From: Vicingaceae bacterium | Lineage (GTDB): Bacteria > Bacteroidota > Bacteroidia > Flavobacteriales_E > Vicingaceae | Direction: 5' to 3' | DNA: 43,111 nt | NCBI GenBank assembly: GCA_019429185.1 | Contig: JAHYJH010000015.1 | Span: 1 to 43,111 of the forward strand | In this document: positions 1 through 38,001 of the stretch, piece after piece | Numbering within the stretch: the first letter of the stretch is position 1 | Layout: the number at the start of each line of letters is the position of its first letter | The notes under the pieces: generated by a model | What the model saw: only the letters and a program-made list of their open reading frames with translations | Database searches by the model: none | What the model was told of the DNA's origin: nothing | Program-made: the position numbers and the translations under genes

Positions 1-3000
1 AGCGCAAATTATTACCAGGTTGAGGGGCAACAATTTCTATCACTTCGTTGTATGGATTACGAATACCAACATTTTCTAACAATGCTTGTGCATTAGCAAC
101 TTCTTGTTGGTTGGTTGTAGCATCTGCCACTTCACCTACTAAGGTTGCTCTTGCTGTATCTGTTACGAGTGTAAATGTACATGCTGCTGTGGACATTACA
201 TCAACAACCACATTGTGTAATTTGCAAAAATCTTCATTCACTGGATTGACATCCAACGCATCCAATTGTTGACGTGCTGCTACCGAATCTTGATTAGCCA
301 TTCTAACCAATGCCAATAATTGCTCTTGCTCATTTGTTTTTGTAGGTTGTTGCAAAAGATAATCTTCTACCAACGCAAAACCATCACTGGTAACCTCATC
401 AAACAACAAATCTCTGATTAAATCATTTTCTGTACGTTGAAATTCCGATTGATAAACGCTAATTTCTTGTTGTAACAACTCCATAGCTGATTCGCCTGTT
501 TGTGCATTAGTTAGTTGGTTTTTAATGCCTTTTGGGAGAGTCATTCCTGCTAAATAAGCTGCCACTGCATCGCTTAGCGGACTGTTTGCCAACAAAATTT
601 GTTGGATGTGTCCATTGGCTGGATTGGTTGCCAAAAATGCCAACAACACGTCATCTGATAGATAAGGAGAAGCTGCCAACAAGGCGTTGTTAACATTTCC
701 ACCGGATTGGGTAGCAATGATGTTGAGCAACGCTGCTGTGCTTCCTGCATCAATTAAACCAGTAAGACTATCGATGGTTAATTTTAAACCACCGAGGGCT
801 GTCGTCAATTGAGCTCTTGTTCTTGTAACACGTTTGGGGCAAGAAGTTTCATCATTTAAAAATTTAGGAGAAGGAGATAAACACAAATTTAAAGTAGTAT
901 TATTTGTATTATAAAACCCATTTCGAGGTTCTAATGTAGAATTATTATCGCTAAAAGAATAAATACTGTTTAAAGTTACATTATTTTCCATCCAAAAATC
1001 ACCACCACCAGACACAACAGTATTGGAAAAAAAGTTATTTGCAGGTGTTGTTGGATTTAAGGAACAAAGCCCTTGTAATATTTTAACTCTTCCAGAAGAC
1101 ACTAAAATATCAAAGTTTGCAGTTTCAAAAAATTTATTACATCTGAATTCTAAACCTCTTTGACGAATAGCTAAAGGAGAAGTTCCTGCATTTATACCCG
1201 CTGCTTGTATTCCCACTTTAAGATCTGTAAATGTATTTCGATAAATTTCATTCGAGTTTTCTCCAGATTGAAAAGCGTAAATTCCTAAATAAGCATCATT
1301 TATAGTGGGAAAGATAGGTGAAACAAATGTGTTGTTTTCTACTTTATATCTTGTACATTGACTTAAATACAAACCATATGAAACAGTTGTTGGTGTTATT
1401 AAATTATTAAACGATTCTCCTACTTCAAAGTGATTATCTGTAACTTCGGGTACAGTTAATCCAGATAAAAGGATACTTCGCCAGTTATTTTTAAATTCAC
1501 TTTGAGTTACTCTTACCGTATAGGTAGGATTACTGCTTGAAGCCCTTATACCACCAGTTAGATTTTCAAAGAGACTTTTATCCAAGTTAGTACAAGGATT
1601 CGTTAGATTAAGGCAACGAGCAGTAACAACTATTTTACTATTAGCAGAACGTATTCCCAATCCTCTTCCAAGAAAAGTAAAAATACCTTGTGGGGCTGTA
1701 TTTTTAAAATCACAACCTGAAAAATTTATACCATTTACGCCTATCAAACGAGCATGAACCATTCCTCCGTTCAGTGCCGGATTATTGAGTGAATTATCCG
1801 TTTCAAAAGTTACATTTATAAAACGAGATATATCATTAATGCTATTTCCATTAAAAACCGATTCATAAGGGTTAAATGCCACATCAACTAAATTGTTTCT
1901 AAAAGTTGTATTGGTTGCTCTGATTATTCCTCCATTATTCGCATTTACAGGTGGGACAGTAGTACCTCCAGAGGTTGCTACTGGTTGTCTAAAATTAACT
2001 GCTCCTTCTAAGGCATGTTCTATTAATGAATTATTAGCGGTAAACCATCCAGAAGTATTAACCTGATTGCTTCCTGTGCCTGTACCCCAAACTTCAACAC
2101 CTTGCCACATAGCATTAGGGTTACATTCATAATTTACGGTAAGGGTGGTATTATTAATAGTTAATCTTGCACCATTCTCAACAATTAGCTTAGCATCAGA
2201 AGCAAATTCAAATTGCATATTGTTGATGATAATGTTGGCCCCTTGCTTTATCACTAATTGTTCTTCTACAGTTACTGGATTATTGGTGTTGTTAAAAGGA
2301 TTACTTCCAGGACTCCAAGTTTGTGAACCAATATATTCCGTATTTTGTTTTTGATTTTTTACTTCAAACTCTGTAAAACTTAAACAACAAGCTACACTTG
2401 AATTAAATGAGGCAGTATAATCCATGCCGTCTATTTGGTCGGGGAGAATAAAGGTTTCTAAAAAGGTATGACCTAAAAATGATTGATTAGAATTATAAAC
2501 AATAGGAATCGCATTATCAACAAATATCGGTGTTGTTGGATTGTTTGGATTATTAAGTGTTGCTAATCTGTTGTTTGAAGCAAAATATAATTTACCATCT
2601 TTGCCTAATTCTATTTGACTTTTTCTGAAATCGTATGTGTTTGGCACATTGAGTCCTTGCTTTATTAATGTAGGTTGTGATAAATCAAAATAATCAATAC
2701 TAGGAATAACAGGTATGTTATTACCGAAAGGTAAATCTTGAGTAACGTAAACATAGTTTAAATCAGGAGAGAATTCAACTCCTTTAAGTTCTGTTCCAAA
2801 AGTATAAGAATAAGTTTTTTCACTCGATGGAATCAAATTTCCTGTATTATAATCAATCTCAGCAACATATAATGACGGATCATAATTGTACTGTCCTAAT
2901 AGTGCTAACTTATAGCGTTTTTGATTGGTTATAGGGTCTAAATATTCTACAACTTCCATTTCACCTCTTATTATATGTGTTCCTGCCGCAGTAACTAATA

Positions 3001-3682
3001 AAGGTACTGTAGAAAAAGTTAACAGATTTACTCCGTTCCCATCTATTTGCACAGTTACAATTTTACCGTTTATATTTATAAACAGCCACCTGCTTCCATC
3101 ATCCCTTATTTTAGTAGCTGCATATTGATTTATACCTGAAAATGACATATTCCATTGTAATGGAAAAGGAATAAATGGTGCATCTCCACCATAAGTAACA
3201 ACTGGATTAATAGGATTAGGGTATGAAAAATCAAGCACTGTCATTTGAGGTACTCCCCAATAGTATGAAGGTGGCCATTGCTGATCTGGGTACACTACTA
3301 TTCTGTCGTAGAAAATATAAAAACGTTTACAATTTGCAGGGTCAGGAATAATAACGATTTCATTTGATGGGGCAAGTAGTTAATCCATTCCCATTCCATT
3401 TTTATCATAAATTATCTCATCAACAATAAAAAACAGTAAATCTCCATTTTGATCTTGCATCGCATGATGAGTAGTATAGCCTGCTTGTTGTCCATAATAA
3501 TTCGGAAGTCCATTTGCTGGATTTAAACTGCCAAATGGCTGCGTGGGGAGGGGGAGGAGTGTTGGAAACCCTATTATAGGAAATTTAGCATAATTAGGAG
3601 GTAAACTCCATATAGCATTTTGTTGAGCAAATAATGATGTGAGGATAAGCAAATGTGCGAATATGAGGATAAGTTTTTTCAT
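1..3682 (-). pseudogene. Large secreted beta-helix protein, interrupted by one in-frame TAA and cut by the window edge
   Basis: The N-terminal piece (3380-3682, 100 residues) starts with a signal peptide, MKKLILIFAHLLILTSLFAQ. The frame stops at a TAA at 3380-3382. It then stays open for 1126 more codons, to base 2, in the same frame and with coherent protein sequence, so I read it as one gene of more than 1220 codons. After the stop there is a beta-strand region resembling an N-terminal propeller, with LYFASNN-like motifs. About 500 residues of right-handed beta-helix follow, seen as repeated N-x-F turns such as NNTF, NTFTDL and FKNTA. A leucine-rich helical part near 480-830 contains SPYLSDDVL and SPLSDAV. 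The C-terminus, where a T9SS sorting domain would be expected, lies outside the window. The family is inferred from fold-like patterns only. The TAA could be a real nonsense mutation, a polymorphism or a sequence error. The promoter should lie in the 130-bp divergent spacer. Confidence 0.7.
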
Positions 3683-3779: not shown

Positions 3780-3809
3780 TTGTTAAAACTTTAATTTTAT
3801 GTACTTTTA
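3780..3809 (+). promoter_or_regulatory. Bacteroidota-type promoter of the type B T9SS gene
   Basis: TTG at 3780-3782 is followed by 19 nt and then TACTTTTA at 3802-3809, one base off the TAnnTTTG consensus. Transcription would begin at about 3813-3817, right at the ATG pair at 3814/3817. This argues against the upstream ATG at 3799, which lies inside the promoter. Confidence 0.55.
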
Positions 3810-3813
3810 CAGC

Positions 3814-5862
3814 ATGATGCTTTTCAAATCACTTGGTGTATTTTTTTTATTGCTGTGTTGCCAATTTTTACAAGCCCAGCAGTTGGTGTATTCTAATATA
3901 CTTTATGGTGGAGTTACTGGTAACGGAGGTAGTGTAGCTAATGGTTCAGGCACTATCAACTTTCCAGTACAAATACCCTCCAACAGTACCATAAAAAAAG
4001 TCTATTTAATTGCTGCCCGCGATAGTTTGGCTGACGATATTACTGTAACTTTAAATGGAAATAATTATACTTTTTCTGATGTAACAATAATTACAGATGG
4101 ATTTAATGCTTTTAATAATGGAAGTTCGAATAGACCAAATTCTAGTATACATATGTTAGATATTACAAGTGATATTGATTCATCAGTTAATACCTACTCT
4201 TTAACTATACCTCCACCCAATAATTCTTTCAAGGGAGTTTATACTTTTTATTATCTTTATATTGTGTATGAAAATTTATTTTTATCAAAAATAAATTGCA
4301 ATTTATTTTTGAACTATAAAGATGTTGCCCCCATTACAACTTATAATCTAACCAATTTAACCCCTATTAACAACACTAATTCTGTGAGTTTAGCTATAAA
4401 TGCTTTACAGTTTTGTGATACTATACAGGATGGTTCTTATGTAGATGTAAACGGAAATACGATTGGATTAATTGGAGGAGAAGACTTAAATTCCAATTTA
4501 TGGACTTGTGTAGGCCCTTGGGCTAATTTTGCTCATTACAATGATAGTTTGTTTGGTTTGGATGATGATACTTCTGATAGTTTAATGGGTGGCACTGATG
4601 CGTTGGCAGACATTAAAAGTTACGTTAATAATGGAGATACGGCTGTTGATATCGTTTTTACTTATCAAACATTAAACAATTCCAATGGTGGCATATTAAC
4701 CAATCCCATACGAGCCGTAATGCTATCCTATTCCACCCCTTGCGATACCTTTAGCACCGCAGCAACAGCTACCCAAGATACTATTTGCTTAGGAGATAGT
4801 GTACAATTGAGTGCCACAGGCGGAGCAACCTACAGTTGGTATGGATCTTTTGGTGGGTTAAGTGATACGAGCATTGCCAACCCTATGGCAAGTCCACCAC
4901 AAACCACCACCTACATTGTTACCATAAAAAACGATAGTGGTTGTGTAAAAACAGAACACGTTAAAATTTGGGTAATCCAACCCATAGATAGTATTTCTAC
5001 TACACCCACCACTTGTGGTAATGCAACAGGTAGTATTACCTCCCATTTTAACACCAATGCCAATTACAACTTTACGCTGTATGATAATAACTTTAACTTA
5101 TTAAGTAGCAATATCACAGGAACTTTTAATCAATTAGCAGAAGGAACCTACATAGTAGAAAACATCCTACATAACTGTACTTTTTATGATACTGTAATGG
5201 TAAATGCCGTTAACAACGTAACAGCTAGTTTTTACAATGCACCCCAAGCACCATTTAGCAATCCTAACCAATCTTTGGGCAAAGCACCAATGGAAGTAAG
5301 TTTTATGAATACTTCGCAAAATGCCAATATGTTTGCGTGGAGTATTGCAGAGATTGCTTCGTACCTCGCAATGACGGGTCCGAAGGATACGCTTATTCAA
5401 CATTCAACATTCAACACGCAACACTTTTTTACAGAAGGAGGAACTTTTGAAGTTTGTTTAATTGCCTATAATAACTTGCCCCAATGTGCCGATACGGTTT
5501 GTAAAACCATTTTTATAGACAACAATGAAAACGTGAGTGTGCTTATTCCTAATGTATTTACCCCAAATGGAGATAATGAAAATGATAATTTTGTTATTCA
5601 AGTGTTGGGAGCAAATTTATTAGAAAGGTTGGAAGTTGAAGTGTTTAATCGGTGGGGGCAAGAGGTTGGAAGCAGGAAGTTGGAAGTTGGAAGTTTGGGA
5701 GAGATTCCTGTTTTTTCAGGAATGACGGAAGTGGTAATTTGGGATGGCACAACAACCTCAGGCAAAAAAGCAGCAGAAGGCACGTATTTTTATGTGGTAA
5801 CCTACACTACCAAACAAGGCGAAACGGTAACTGAAAAAGGAAGTGTAACACTTTTGAGGTAG
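3814..5862 (+). CDS. T9SS substrate with type B (CHU_C) sorting domain
   Basis: This is a secreted protein of about 682 residues. I prefer the ATG at 3814 (or 3817) over 3799, because the promoter overlaps 3799 and because the signal peptide, MMLFKSLGVFFLLLCCQFLQA, then begins properly. The N-terminal half is beta-rich and I do not recognise it. The middle has a PKD/Ig-like segment beginning ICLGDSVQLSATGG, and a second PKD-like segment around SFMNTSQNANMFAWSI. The C-terminus is a gliding-motility type sorting domain, with VFTPNGDNENDNF, VFNRWGQ, WDG and EGTYFYV. Such domains direct export through the T9SS and surface attachment or release. Two short palindromic elements and two tandem-repeat stretches lie in frame near 5349-5416 and 5665-5728, adding low-complexity residues. 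It is convergent with uvrD, 52 bp away. Its function is unknown beyond being a surface or secreted protein. Confidence 0.85.
   Translation: MMLFKSLGVFFLLLCCQFLQAQQLVYSNILYGGVTGNGGSVANGSGTINFPVQIPSNSTIKKVYLIAARDSLADDITVTLNGNNYTFSDVTIITDGFNAFNNGSSNRPNSSIHMLDITSDIDSSVNTYSLTIPPPNNSFKGVYTFYYLYIVYENLFLSKINCNLFLNYKDVAPITTYNLTNLTPINNTNSVSLAINALQFCDTIQDGSYVDVNGNTIGLIGGEDLNSNLWTCVGPWANFAHYNDSLFGLDDDTSDSLMGGTDALADIKSYVNNGDTAVDIVFTYQTLNNSNGGILTNPIRAVMLSYSTPCDTFSTAATATQDTICLGDSVQLSATGGATYSWYGSFGGLSDTSIANPMASPPQTTTYIVTIKNDSGCVKTEHVKIWVIQPIDSISTTPTTCGNATGSITSHFNTNANYNFTLYDNNFNLLSSNITGTFNQLAEGTYIVENILHNCTFYDTVMVNAVNNVTASFYNAPQAPFSNPNQSLGKAPMEVSFMNTSQNANMFAWSIAEIASYLAMTGPKDTLIQHSTFNTQHFFTEGGTFEVCLIAYNNLPQCADTVCKTIFIDNNENVSVLIPNVFTPNGDNENDNFVIQVLGANLLERLEVEVFNRWGQEVGSRKLEVGSLGEIPVFSGMTEVVIWDGTTTSGKKAAEGTYFYVVTYTTKQGETVTEKGSVTLLR
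5349..5377 (+). repeat. Short palindromic element inside a coding sequence, copy 1
   Basis: AGAGATT...AATGACGG with arms ATTGC (5353-5357) and GCAAT (5368-5372). It shares its GAGATT and AATGACGG ends with the element at 5701-5728. It resembles the widespread GAGATTGCTTCG/CGCAATGACG type of dispersed repeat. It is read in frame as EIASYLAMTG. Confidence 0.6.
5395..5416 (+). repeat. Tandem ATTCAAC heptamers inside a coding sequence
   Basis: Three consecutive ATTCAAC units lie 18 bp downstream of palindromic copy 1. They are read as IQHSTFNT. Repeats of this type are normally intergenic in Bacteroidota genomes. Confidence 0.5.
5677..5698 (+). repeat. Tandem AAGTTGG heptamers inside the sorting domain
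   Basis: AAGTTGG at 5677-5683 and 5684-5690 is followed by the variant AAGTTTGG at 5691-5698, immediately upstream of palindromic copy 2. It is read in frame as KLEVGSL. Confidence 0.55.
5701..5728 (+). repeat. Short palindromic element inside a coding sequence, copy 2
   Basis: GAGATTCCTG, TTTTTT, CAGGAATGACGG. The 7-bp arms ATTCCTG (5704-5710) and CAGGAAT (5717-5723) pair perfectly around a T6 loop. The ends match copy 1. It is read in frame as EIPVFSGMTE between the NRWGQ and WDG motifs of the CHU_C domain. Confidence 0.65.
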
Positions 5863-12161: not shown

Positions 12162-13634
12162 ATGAAAAAAATTTTTCTAGCATTAGGTCTTATTTCTTTT
12201 ACAGCTATTGGATTTGCTCAAAATGTGGGTATAAACACAACTGGAGCTTTACCAAATGCCTCTGCGGGTTTAGATGTAAATTTCACAAATAAAGGACTGT
12301 TGGTTCCTCGAGTAACCTTAACTTCCACAACAGATGTGGTTACTATTCCTGCTCCAGCGACAAGTTTATTGGTATATAACACCAACGCAGCAATGACAGG
12401 TGGTGCAGTTGGGTATTGGTATTGGGATGGGGCAGCATGGGTACAAGCACTTGGCCCACAAGGTCCTGCCGGTCCACAAGGTCCAATAGGATTAACTGGT
12501 CCTGCTGGTCCTACGGGAGCAACAGGTGCGACAGGTCCTGCCGGTCCACAAGGTCCAATAGGATTAACTGGTCCTGCTGGACCCGCTGGTCCTACGGGAG
12601 CAACTGGTGCAACAGGAGCAACAGGTCCTGCTGGTCCACAAGGAATTCAAGGTATTCAGGGGCCTGTTGGGCCTATGGGGCCATCATGGACATTGACTAC
12701 ACCAACATTCAATGCCAATGGAACAGTTACAGTAAATGGAACTGCTGGTTCTGGTGGACCAGTAACATCCACTGCTGCGGCTTGGTTAACAACAGGAAAT
12801 AATCCTGTTGCAACCACTAATTTTATTGGCTCAATTAATGCCGCTGACTTAAAATTTAGAACTAGTAATATCGAAAGAATGACCATTGAAGCAAATGGGG
12901 ATATTGGGATTAGAACTACTACTCCCCTTACTAGTATTCATTATAGTTACAACACAGTTCTTTCTCAGTTTCATACTATGTGGGATTTTAATAATACTAC
13001 AGATGCAATTGCAAGAGCTCAAAGTTTAAATGCAGGAAATGGTAGTAGAGGTTGGTTTGGAATTACAAACTATAGTGGTACTGCTAATGCTGCAAATGGA
13101 TTGATAGGTCTTGCTATTAATGCTGCTGGTAATGCTGCTGGTGTAGAGGGTTTTGCTAATGGTAATTTAGGTGTAGGGATATTAGGTGGCGGAGTTGCTG
13201 CATCAACAACAGGTTGGGCAGGGTTCTTTAATGGAGATGTTGGTGCAACTGGTGCTTTTATTCCTTCTGATTCGAGACTAAAAAGAGACGTAAAACCACT
13301 TGGAAATGCAATGAATACTATAAATAAATTAAACCCTGTAACTTATTTTTATGATACTGATAAGTATCCTCATATTGGTTTTGATGATAGATTATCATAT
13401 GGGTTCATTGCTCAAGAATTAGAAAAAGTAGTACCCGAGATGGTCAAAAATAAAATTATTATTTTAAATGGCACAAACCCGCGTGACAATAACATGAGTG
13501 CTACTAGAGAGGCAGAAGAATTTAAGGTGGTAAATTATATTTCTTTAATTCCTATTTTAACTCAAGCATTAAAAGAGCAACAAGCTGTAATAGAAGCGTT
13601 AGAAAAAAGATTAGAAGCATTAGAAAATAGATAA
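12162..13634 (+). CDS. Collagen-like repeat protein with C-terminal S74 intramolecular chaperone domain
   Basis: A 490-residue secreted protein. It has a signal peptide (1-19, ending GFA), a short N-terminal domain, and about 25 uninterrupted Gly-X-Y triplets (98-174, rich in GPQ, GPA, GAT). A beta-rich stalk follows (about 175-365). The C-terminus has an endosialidase-type chaperone (peptidase S74) signature, SDSRLKRDV, with Ser369 and Lys374 spaced like the self-cleavage dyad. The motif [16 protein letters not shown] comes next. The protein ends in a coiled coil (about 462-490, with [11 protein letters not shown]). In phage tail spikes this domain trimerises and then cuts itself off, so a trimeric collagen-like surface fibre is a reasonable inference. 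No T9SS sorting tail is visible. It is probably co-transcribed with the next gene. Confidence 0.85.
12462..12580 (+). repeat. Direct repeats within the collagen-like region
   Basis: A 47-bp segment at 12462-12508 is repeated exactly at 12534-12580. The 72-bp period equals 24 codons or eight Gly-X-Y triplets, so copy-number change would keep the triplet register. Confidence 0.85.
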
Positions 13635-36520: not shown

Positions 36521-37759
36521 ATGGAAAATAAACAAGTTAAATGTTCTTTTTGTAGCAGATCTAAAAACGAAGTTGATGTAATGATAGCAGGTGTTTCAGG
36601 ACATATCTGTAACCATTGTATAGCACAAGCACAACATATTGTTAAGGAAGAAACTGTTGGAAAAACAGCTAAAGAGTTAGCCAATCAATTGGTACTTTTA
36701 AAACCAGCAGAAATAAAAAGTCATCTTGATGAGTATGTTATTGAACAAGATAGTGCTAAAAAAGTACTTTCAGTTGCAGTTTATAACCATTATAAAAGAT
36801 TAACTCAACAAGGAATTAAATCCAACGATGATGTTGATATTGAAAAATCAAACATACTTTTAGTAGGGGAAACCGGAACTGGAAAAACATTGTTGGCTAA
36901 AACAATTGCTAAAATATTGAAAGTTCCATTTTGTATTGCTGATGCTACCATTTTAACAGAAGCAGGTTACGTTGGAGAAGATGTTGAAAGTATTTTATCT
37001 CGTTTGCTTCAAGCAGCCGATTATGATGTGGAAGCAGCACAAAGAGGTATAGTTTTTATTGATGAAATTGATAAAATTGCAAGAAAAAGTGATAATCCTT
37101 CCATAACCAGAGATGTGAGTGGAGAAGGAGTTCAACAAGCACTGTTGAAATTATTAGAAGGTTCTGCTGTAAACGTACCACCTCAAGGTGGAAGAAAACA
37201 CCCGGAACAAAAAATGATTTCTGTAGAAACTAAAAACATTCTTTTTATTTGTGGTGGTGCTTTTGATGGCATAAAATTAAAAATAGCCAGAAGATTAAAA
37301 ACACACGTTATTGGTTATAAAAATATAGAGCAAGAACAAGTTGATGAAGATAATTTATTGCAATACATTACGCCATTGGATATAAAATCTTTTGGTTTAA
37401 TACCTGAATTAATAGGAAGATTACCCGTGTTGAGTTATTTAGATCCATTAAGCAAACCTGCTTTAAGAAGAATATTAACTGAACCCAAAAATGCAATCAT
37501 TAAGCAATATGTAAGACTTTTTGAGCTGGATAACATAAAACTTTCGTTTGATAAAGCGGCATTAGATTTTATAGTAGATAAATCTATGGAATTTCAGTTG
37601 GGAGCTAGAGGGTTGCGTTCTATTTGCGAGGCAATTATGTTAGATGCTATGTTTGAACTACCTTCACAGCAGGATGTTAAAGAATTAAAAATAACCTTAA
37701 ACTATGCTAAAAATAAATTTGAAAAATCTAAAATTAGCAATAAGTTGAAAGTAGCATAA
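36521..37759 (+). CDS. clpX: ATP-dependent Clp protease ATPase subunit ClpX
   Basis: Hexameric AAA+ unfoldase that feeds substrates to ClpP, 412 residues. The N-terminal zinc domain has Cys8, Cys11, Cys30 and Cys33. The ATPase has Walker A GETGTGKT (116-123), pore loop GYVG (149-152), Walker B VFIDE (178-182), the RKH pore loop (225-227) and sensor 2 GARGLR. The ClpP-docking tripeptide, IGF in E. coli, reads IGY (264-266) here, which I believe is common in Bacteroidota. clpP is not adjacent. It is probably co-transcribed with carA. No terminator is visible in the repeat-rich 242 bp that follow. Confidence 0.97.
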
Positions 37760-37790: not shown

Positions 37791-37853
37791 GTCATTCTGA
37801 ACAAAATTTTTCGTTCCGAAGTATGAGGAATAGAAAAATGAAGTGATGAATCT
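37791..37853. repeat. Dispersed-repeat-like sequence after clpX
   Basis: It begins GTCATTCTGAAC and ends GAAGTGATGAATCT, resembling the ends of the common GTCATTCTGAAC...GAAGAATCT dispersed repeat with a divergent middle. Assignment is by resemblance only. Confidence 0.35.
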
Positions 37854-37986
37854 AATTTCTAATGACTAATTTCTAATGACTAATTTCTAATGACTAATTT
37901 CTAATGACTAATTTCTAATGACTAATTTCTAATGACTAATTTCTAATGACTAATTTCTAATGACTAATTTCTAATGACTAATTTCT
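37853..37986. repeat. 14-bp tandem repeat, nine perfect copies
   Basis: AATGACTAATTTCT is repeated nine times without a mismatch (37861-37986), preceded by a partial copy TAATTTCT (37853-37860). The array ends 15 bp before the flippase start. Perfect identity suggests recent expansion and a copy number likely to vary. Confidence 0.95.
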
Positions 37987-38001
37987 AATTTCTTTAAACA
38001 T

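Follow-up and report, generated by a model that had tools for sequence, protein, structure and literature searches.

The CGTC REP superfamily spans five phyla, including Bacteroidetes, and its members, which have no dedicated transposase, form dimers and are found within genes in several species (Di Nocera et al. 2013, PMC3733652). Each element comprises a stem of 8-9 bp that starts with complementary A,T, a loop of 4-5 nt and an unpaired CGTC (or TGTC/CCTC) tag, and most copies are intergenic (PMC3733652). Its members include RPE-4 and RPE-6 of Rickettsia conorii, and the recB genes of Xanthomonas campestris and X. oryzae hold distinct REPs at nearly the same position (PMC3733652). In-frame insertion of RPEs is summarized by Minnick 2024 (PMC10969869); among the papers searched for in-frame REPs in Bacteroidetes, Di Nocera 2013 alone was directly relevant.

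Here we follow two palindromes that lie in frame inside one gene of the window, by which we mean the whole 43,111-nt stretch of Vicingaceae DNA under analysis, and their relatives across the source genome and its family. Like CGTC REPs, these elements have a CGTC tag, a stem starting with A,T, inverted dimers, a mostly intergenic distribution with some copies in frame, and no tied transposase. Unlike them, the window copies pair stems of 5 and 7 bp (8-9 bp in the superfamily) with loops of 10 and 6 nt (4-5 nt in the superfamily), the tail is CTC instead of CCA and, as a further contrast, each of the 22 doublets in the genome has its CGTC ends facing outward. With RPE-4 and RPE-6 they share the presence of short palindromes in frame in unrelated genes for which insert-free orthologues exist; set against the descriptions of RPEs, they differ in being from Bacteroidota, in stem and loop, and in the sharing of sites among palindromes of several types and heptamer arrays. 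The occupation of one orthologous site by different palindromes recalls the Xanthomonas recB REPs, here in three genes, across genera and including non-CGTC palindromes. Membership of the REPIN/RAYT group (GTAG REPs) was considered and rejected, given the CGTC tag and the fact that none of the six Y1_Tnp genes is flanked by copies. Judged from sequence, the elements come nearest to the CGTC REP superfamily, and the name that suits them best is CGTC-like REPs with RPE-like behaviour. The resemblance to Rickettsia palindromic elements put forward in the original prediction holds for behaviour and does not amount to demonstrated membership of that family.

Two palindromes in a secreted protein gene

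The features of the host gene are as follows.

3799..5862, + strand: host gene of a 687-aa secreted T9SS cargo protein (N-terminal signal-like segment; open frame; orthologues)
Residues 323-390 of the host protein: Ig_7 domain
5350..5377, + strand: element 1, ATTGC/GCAAT arms (5 bp), sequence GAGATTGCTTCGTACCTCGCAATGACGG, in the loop upstream of the GGTFEVCLIAYN segment
5395..5416, + strand: heptamer array (ATTCAAC)x3, adjoining element 1; in the genome, here and on C29 only
5542..5853, + strand: CHU_C / T9SS type B sorting domain (PF13585 match, residues 582-685), split by element 2
5665..5695, + strand: heptamer array (GTTGGAA)x4.4, adjoining element 2; elsewhere in the genome on C29 and at C31:3537-3584 only
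5701..5728, + strand: element 2, ATTCCTG/CAGGAAT arms (7 bp), sequence GAGATTCCTGTTTTTTCAGGAATGACGG, in the CHU_C loop directly before VVIWDG

Both elements were predicted to lie in one T9SS gene and to keep its frame, and within the 687-aa frame they indeed read as EIASYLAMT (residues 518-526) and EIPVFSGMT (residues 635-643). The second occupies exactly the predicted positions; the first, placed at 5349-5377, begins one base later, at 5350. As had also been proposed, they share common ends, GAGATT and AATGACGG, around different arms, which enclose a loop of 10 nt in element 1 and of 6 nt in element 2. GACG at 5373-5376 and 5724-5727 reads CGTC on the opposite strand, and other genome copies end likewise. 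The pattern GAGATTN{6,25}AATGACG matches twice in the 43-kb window compared with 0.02 expected from shuffles, and 0 of 100 shuffles gave two matches. An Rfam search returned no match for the elements; a mir-395 hit with an E of 2.3 was set aside as chance.

Judged by codon substitution in its C-terminal flanks (NG86), the host gene is real and under purifying selection with both inserts in place: dN is 0.035 and dS 0.305 (dN/dS ~0.11) against the paralogue on C29, and 0.176 and 0.763 (~0.23) against the gene G011_C27 of a same-genus genome. The C29 paralogue also has both elements, at the same spacing of 351 bp, and its 3' segment is 93.5% identical to that of the window gene over 647 bp, with 5' parts that are far more diverged. 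Because the C29 elements sit inside this near-identical segment at equal spacing, they are duplicates and not separate insertions. An AlphaFold model of the C-terminal 222 residues had a mean pLDDT of 47.5, too poor to place the inserts in loops.

Exact triple heptamers number only two in the window: ATTCAAC at 5395 adjoins element 1 and GGAAGTT at 5675 adjoins element 2. At C31:3537-3584 (L230), an intergenic GGAAGTT array of ~7 units lies directly downstream of the stop codon of a gene that, from its sequence, we take to be metG-like; it adjoins a CCCCTCT/AGAGGGG palindrome, so that heptamers and palindrome are paired here as they are in the window gene, though between genes. In another family genome, G043, the corresponding loops of the gene contain different heptamer-like sequence.

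The window holds further repeats. A 14-bp tandem repeat, CTAATTTCTAATGA, made of two related heptamers, occurs in ten perfect copies at 37852-37989, just downstream of an open reading frame ending at 37759, and short tandem repeats with periods of 9, 18 and 36 at 12456-12682 encode collagen-like GGTCCTGCCGGT units in the open reading frame 12162-13634. On the minus strand at 2-3682, a large secreted-protein gene appears to be split into a 100-aa signal-peptide reading frame (3380-3682) and a long one (2-3295), probably by a frameshift or an assembly error.

A dispersed and mostly intergenic family

Exact pattern searches of the 3.66-Mb source assembly, together with the contexts of all 78 matches, provided the genome-wide count of coding and intergenic copies by which the prediction was to be checked. 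GATTGCN{4,40}GCAATGAC occurs at 66 places (reversed control, 1) and GATTCCN{4,40}GGAATGAC at 12 (reversed control, 0). About 61 of the 78 lie outside convincing genes, in agreement with the view that such palindromes are normally intergenic, and 17 are in frame within genes. Neighbouring copies form 22 inverted doublets in -+ order, against 0 in +- order, with a gap of mostly 15-17 bp. A third palindrome type, CTCCCCTTTAGGGGTTGGGG with its variants, is present at 17 distinct places, with 0 control matches.

The window gene and its C29 paralogue hold two in-frame copies each, ribD on C203 holds one, with an eroded doublet partner, and SpoIIE genes hold one on C114, one on C178 and four across two adjacent genes on C217. 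The remaining six, in a C39-peptidase ABC transporter, lie at contig ends (C18, C182 and C216), and these contigs jointly encode at least two copies of it; owing to this position, the transporter doublet is counted three times. Pfam backs the identities of the hosts as CHU_C proteins, RibD, SpoIIE and Peptidase_C39/ABC. The in-gene readings, EIASYLAMT/EIPVFSGMT, VIASEERTKQS, DCFVLLHSTRND and SLRGTKQS, cover at least four translation frames; since they differ, different orientations and frames have been retained, and most reading frames of the element are open. Reading frames of 122-143 aa over copies at C223, C32 and C46 were left uncounted as genes and look like chance frames, and the single matches of copy-poor relatives in ABC-F-like and other reading frames (L146, L147, L150, L157, L167) likewise look like chance.

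None of the six Y1_Tnp genes of the genome has an element copy in its flanks (up to ~1.5 kb). No clean target-site duplication was seen at the inserts, where the boundary with the old sequence is blurred on one side by heptamer repeats.

Occupancy of the two sites in orthologues

We compared the two sites across 46 genomes of the family, many of them incomplete. Orthologues free of the elements exist for both: site 1 is empty in G041, G016, G023 and G007, and site 2 in G041, G016 and G007. At site 1, the same element is found in C29 and in G011_C27, from the same genus (HGW-Bacteroidetes-12); in G017, which belongs to a different genus, this loop holds an ATTCC-arm element ~8 codons off. Orthologue loops are variable, and residue-level conservation between genera is absent at site 1.

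Three kinds of palindrome occupy site 2. The ATTCCTG-arm type is present in the window gene, C29 and G011_C370, and between the window gene and G011_C370 the arms are identical and the loop alone differs. G024 and G017 carry an ATTGC-arm element that shares the right junction, ACGGAA; the G017 copy, CGCAAAAACGG, has lost its arm pairing and keeps the frame intact. A CCCC..GGGG-type palindrome is found in G043 and G011_C27. Because the ACGGAA junction is shared, these alignments suggest a single old insertion whose arms were exchanged later, with repeated insertion as the alternative. The in-gene copy of G024 is the sole exact copy of that pattern in its whole genome, as expected for an old resident. 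Among 395 genomes of the class, a sample without G024 and G011, which carry related elements, the site-2 junction pattern occurs in the source genome only.

Neither outcome that would have spoken against in-frame capture was observed: no distant species was seen to carry the same residues at both sites, and further copies of the elements are abundant.

In-frame copies in enzymes and a transporter

In ribD, the insert falls within the linker between the deaminase and reductase domains. The doublet is present there in the source genome, G011, G044 and G017 (four genomes, three genera), a sharing that is probably due to common descent. The linker of G027 has a SFDSAQDD-encoding sequence and those of G043 and G045 a shorter segment with GAGATTGC; most others are short, including those of the same-genus genomes G009, G010 and G012. 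In the solved RibD structure 2hxv, only about 6 residues separate the aligned deaminase and reductase domains, and all insertions of at least 5 residues listed among 26 RibD orthologues are at this linker.

The C39 ABC transporter of the source genome carries a doublet in its peptidase domain. Six other orthologues are empty at this site, and in G045 it holds a segment that, judged from the protein sequence, derives from a different palindrome (SPNPSEGGELN ... GGSLPPSGELKG). Further on, the source-genome transporter has SPSGRLGG and SPPLRGG segments, so that the gene (L183 on C216, L099 on C182) contains at least three repeat-derived in-frame segments. A SpoIIE gene of G012 encodes VIANTVKQS in the same loop as the source-genome copy on C114. 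The in-frame inserts fit the idea that such insertions could create new segments in a surface protein, but the phenomenon is not confined to surface proteins, as ribD, SpoIIE phosphatases and the ABC transporter are also hit.

Origin of the in-frame copies

Very probably, these elements are dispersed REP-like palindromes that reside mainly between genes and whose rare in-gene copies survive in permissive loops. A CGTC-tagged REP-like palindrome would have spread through genomes of a Flavobacteriales-related lineage, mainly between genes, and copies landing in genes would almost always be lost. If its length suits and it falls in a flexible loop, an insertion would add ~9-36 residues and leave the protein unbroken, which would be tolerable because most frames of the element are stop-free; copies of this kind would be retained and from then on change along with the rest of the protein. 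The comparisons presented here document copies dispersed through the genome, their presence in frame in several unrelated genes, insert-free orthologues and purifying selection on the host gene, and from them we infer the act of transposition, the neutrality of the peptides and the favouring of loops by selection rather than by targeting. Weighing against this account are the Y1_Tnp genes with no element copy in their flanks, the failure to see a clean target-site duplication, the blurred insert boundary and the poor structural model described above. A chance origin of the palindromes in ordinary coding sequence could appeal to their short arms (5 and 7 bp), but two are seen in the window where 0.02 are expected and the genome has 78 copies, mostly intergenic, a copy number that effectively excludes it.

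It is possible, if rather unlikely, that the sites are true hotspots, to which a nuclease, a transposase preference or the heptamers direct palindromes, or at which palindromes are swapped by recombination through their GAGATT/AATGACGG ends. Site 2 does hold ATTCCTG-arm, ATTGC-arm and CCCC..GGGG-type palindromes in different orthologues, the transporter peptidase site has a REP doublet here and a different palindrome-derived segment in G045, the RibD linker has the doublet in four genomes and the SFDSAQDD-encoding sequence in G027, and the two exact triple heptamers of the window each adjoin an element. The ~8-codon displacement of the G017 element, however, argues against a fixed target at site 1, such clustering would also be expected if permissive loops were simply selected, and part of the same-site sharing, that of the ribD doublet, is probably common descent. 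We are equally doubtful of the more specific proposal that a few codon positions in conserved family genes are docking sites, at which unrelated palindromes and heptamer arrays were repeatedly inserted or swapped in frame. Retention of the hairpin for a nucleic-acid role within the gene, such as mRNA processing, pausing or protection, seems improbable. In its 3' part, the window gene has no 28-nt stretch identical to G011_C27 other than element 1 (2 of 495 such stretches compared), amid a synonymous divergence of 0.76, and at site 2 the arms, and not the loop, are identical between the window gene and G011_C370. Yet as single RNA hairpins the elements fold no better than shuffled sequence (z = -0.59 for element 1 and -0.80 for element 2), Rfam holds no match, and G017 lost the site-2 pairing with its frame intact; the identity of element 1 may reflect hairpin constraint, but equally gene conversion or the youth of the insertion. 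That the inserted peptides are domesticated adaptive modules, selected as protein segments, for example in surface-protein diversification, is about equally improbable: a secreted protein with two inserts, their duplication with the 3' segment in C29 and variable orthologue loops would fit, but the same insertions occur in RibD, SpoIIE and ABC proteins, and the peptides are unrelated, come from arbitrary frames and, at site 1, are not conserved residue by residue from one genus to another. The most likely reading is one of selfish insertions, which lasted only where a loop could accommodate them.

Implications

The kind of element is already known, and the original interpretation is right in outline. 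With these results, palindrome capture into proteins of the kind known from Rickettsia extends to a lineage of Bacteroidota with a larger genome (3.66 Mb), in which it affects housekeeping and secreted proteins alike. They also carry a warning for annotation, as VIASEERTKQS, EIASYLAMT and similar peptides of this lineage represent repeat DNA and not homologous protein sequence. What deserves attention is the occupation of the same site by different palindromes in orthologues of three genes: the host gene at site 2, ribD at its linker and the transporter at its loop. Orthologues that carry an insert, that lack it or that hold another palindrome in its place together form a natural series for the study of neutrality, targeting and persistence time. 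If the docking sites were real, these loops would be a continuing route from selfish DNA to protein sequence.
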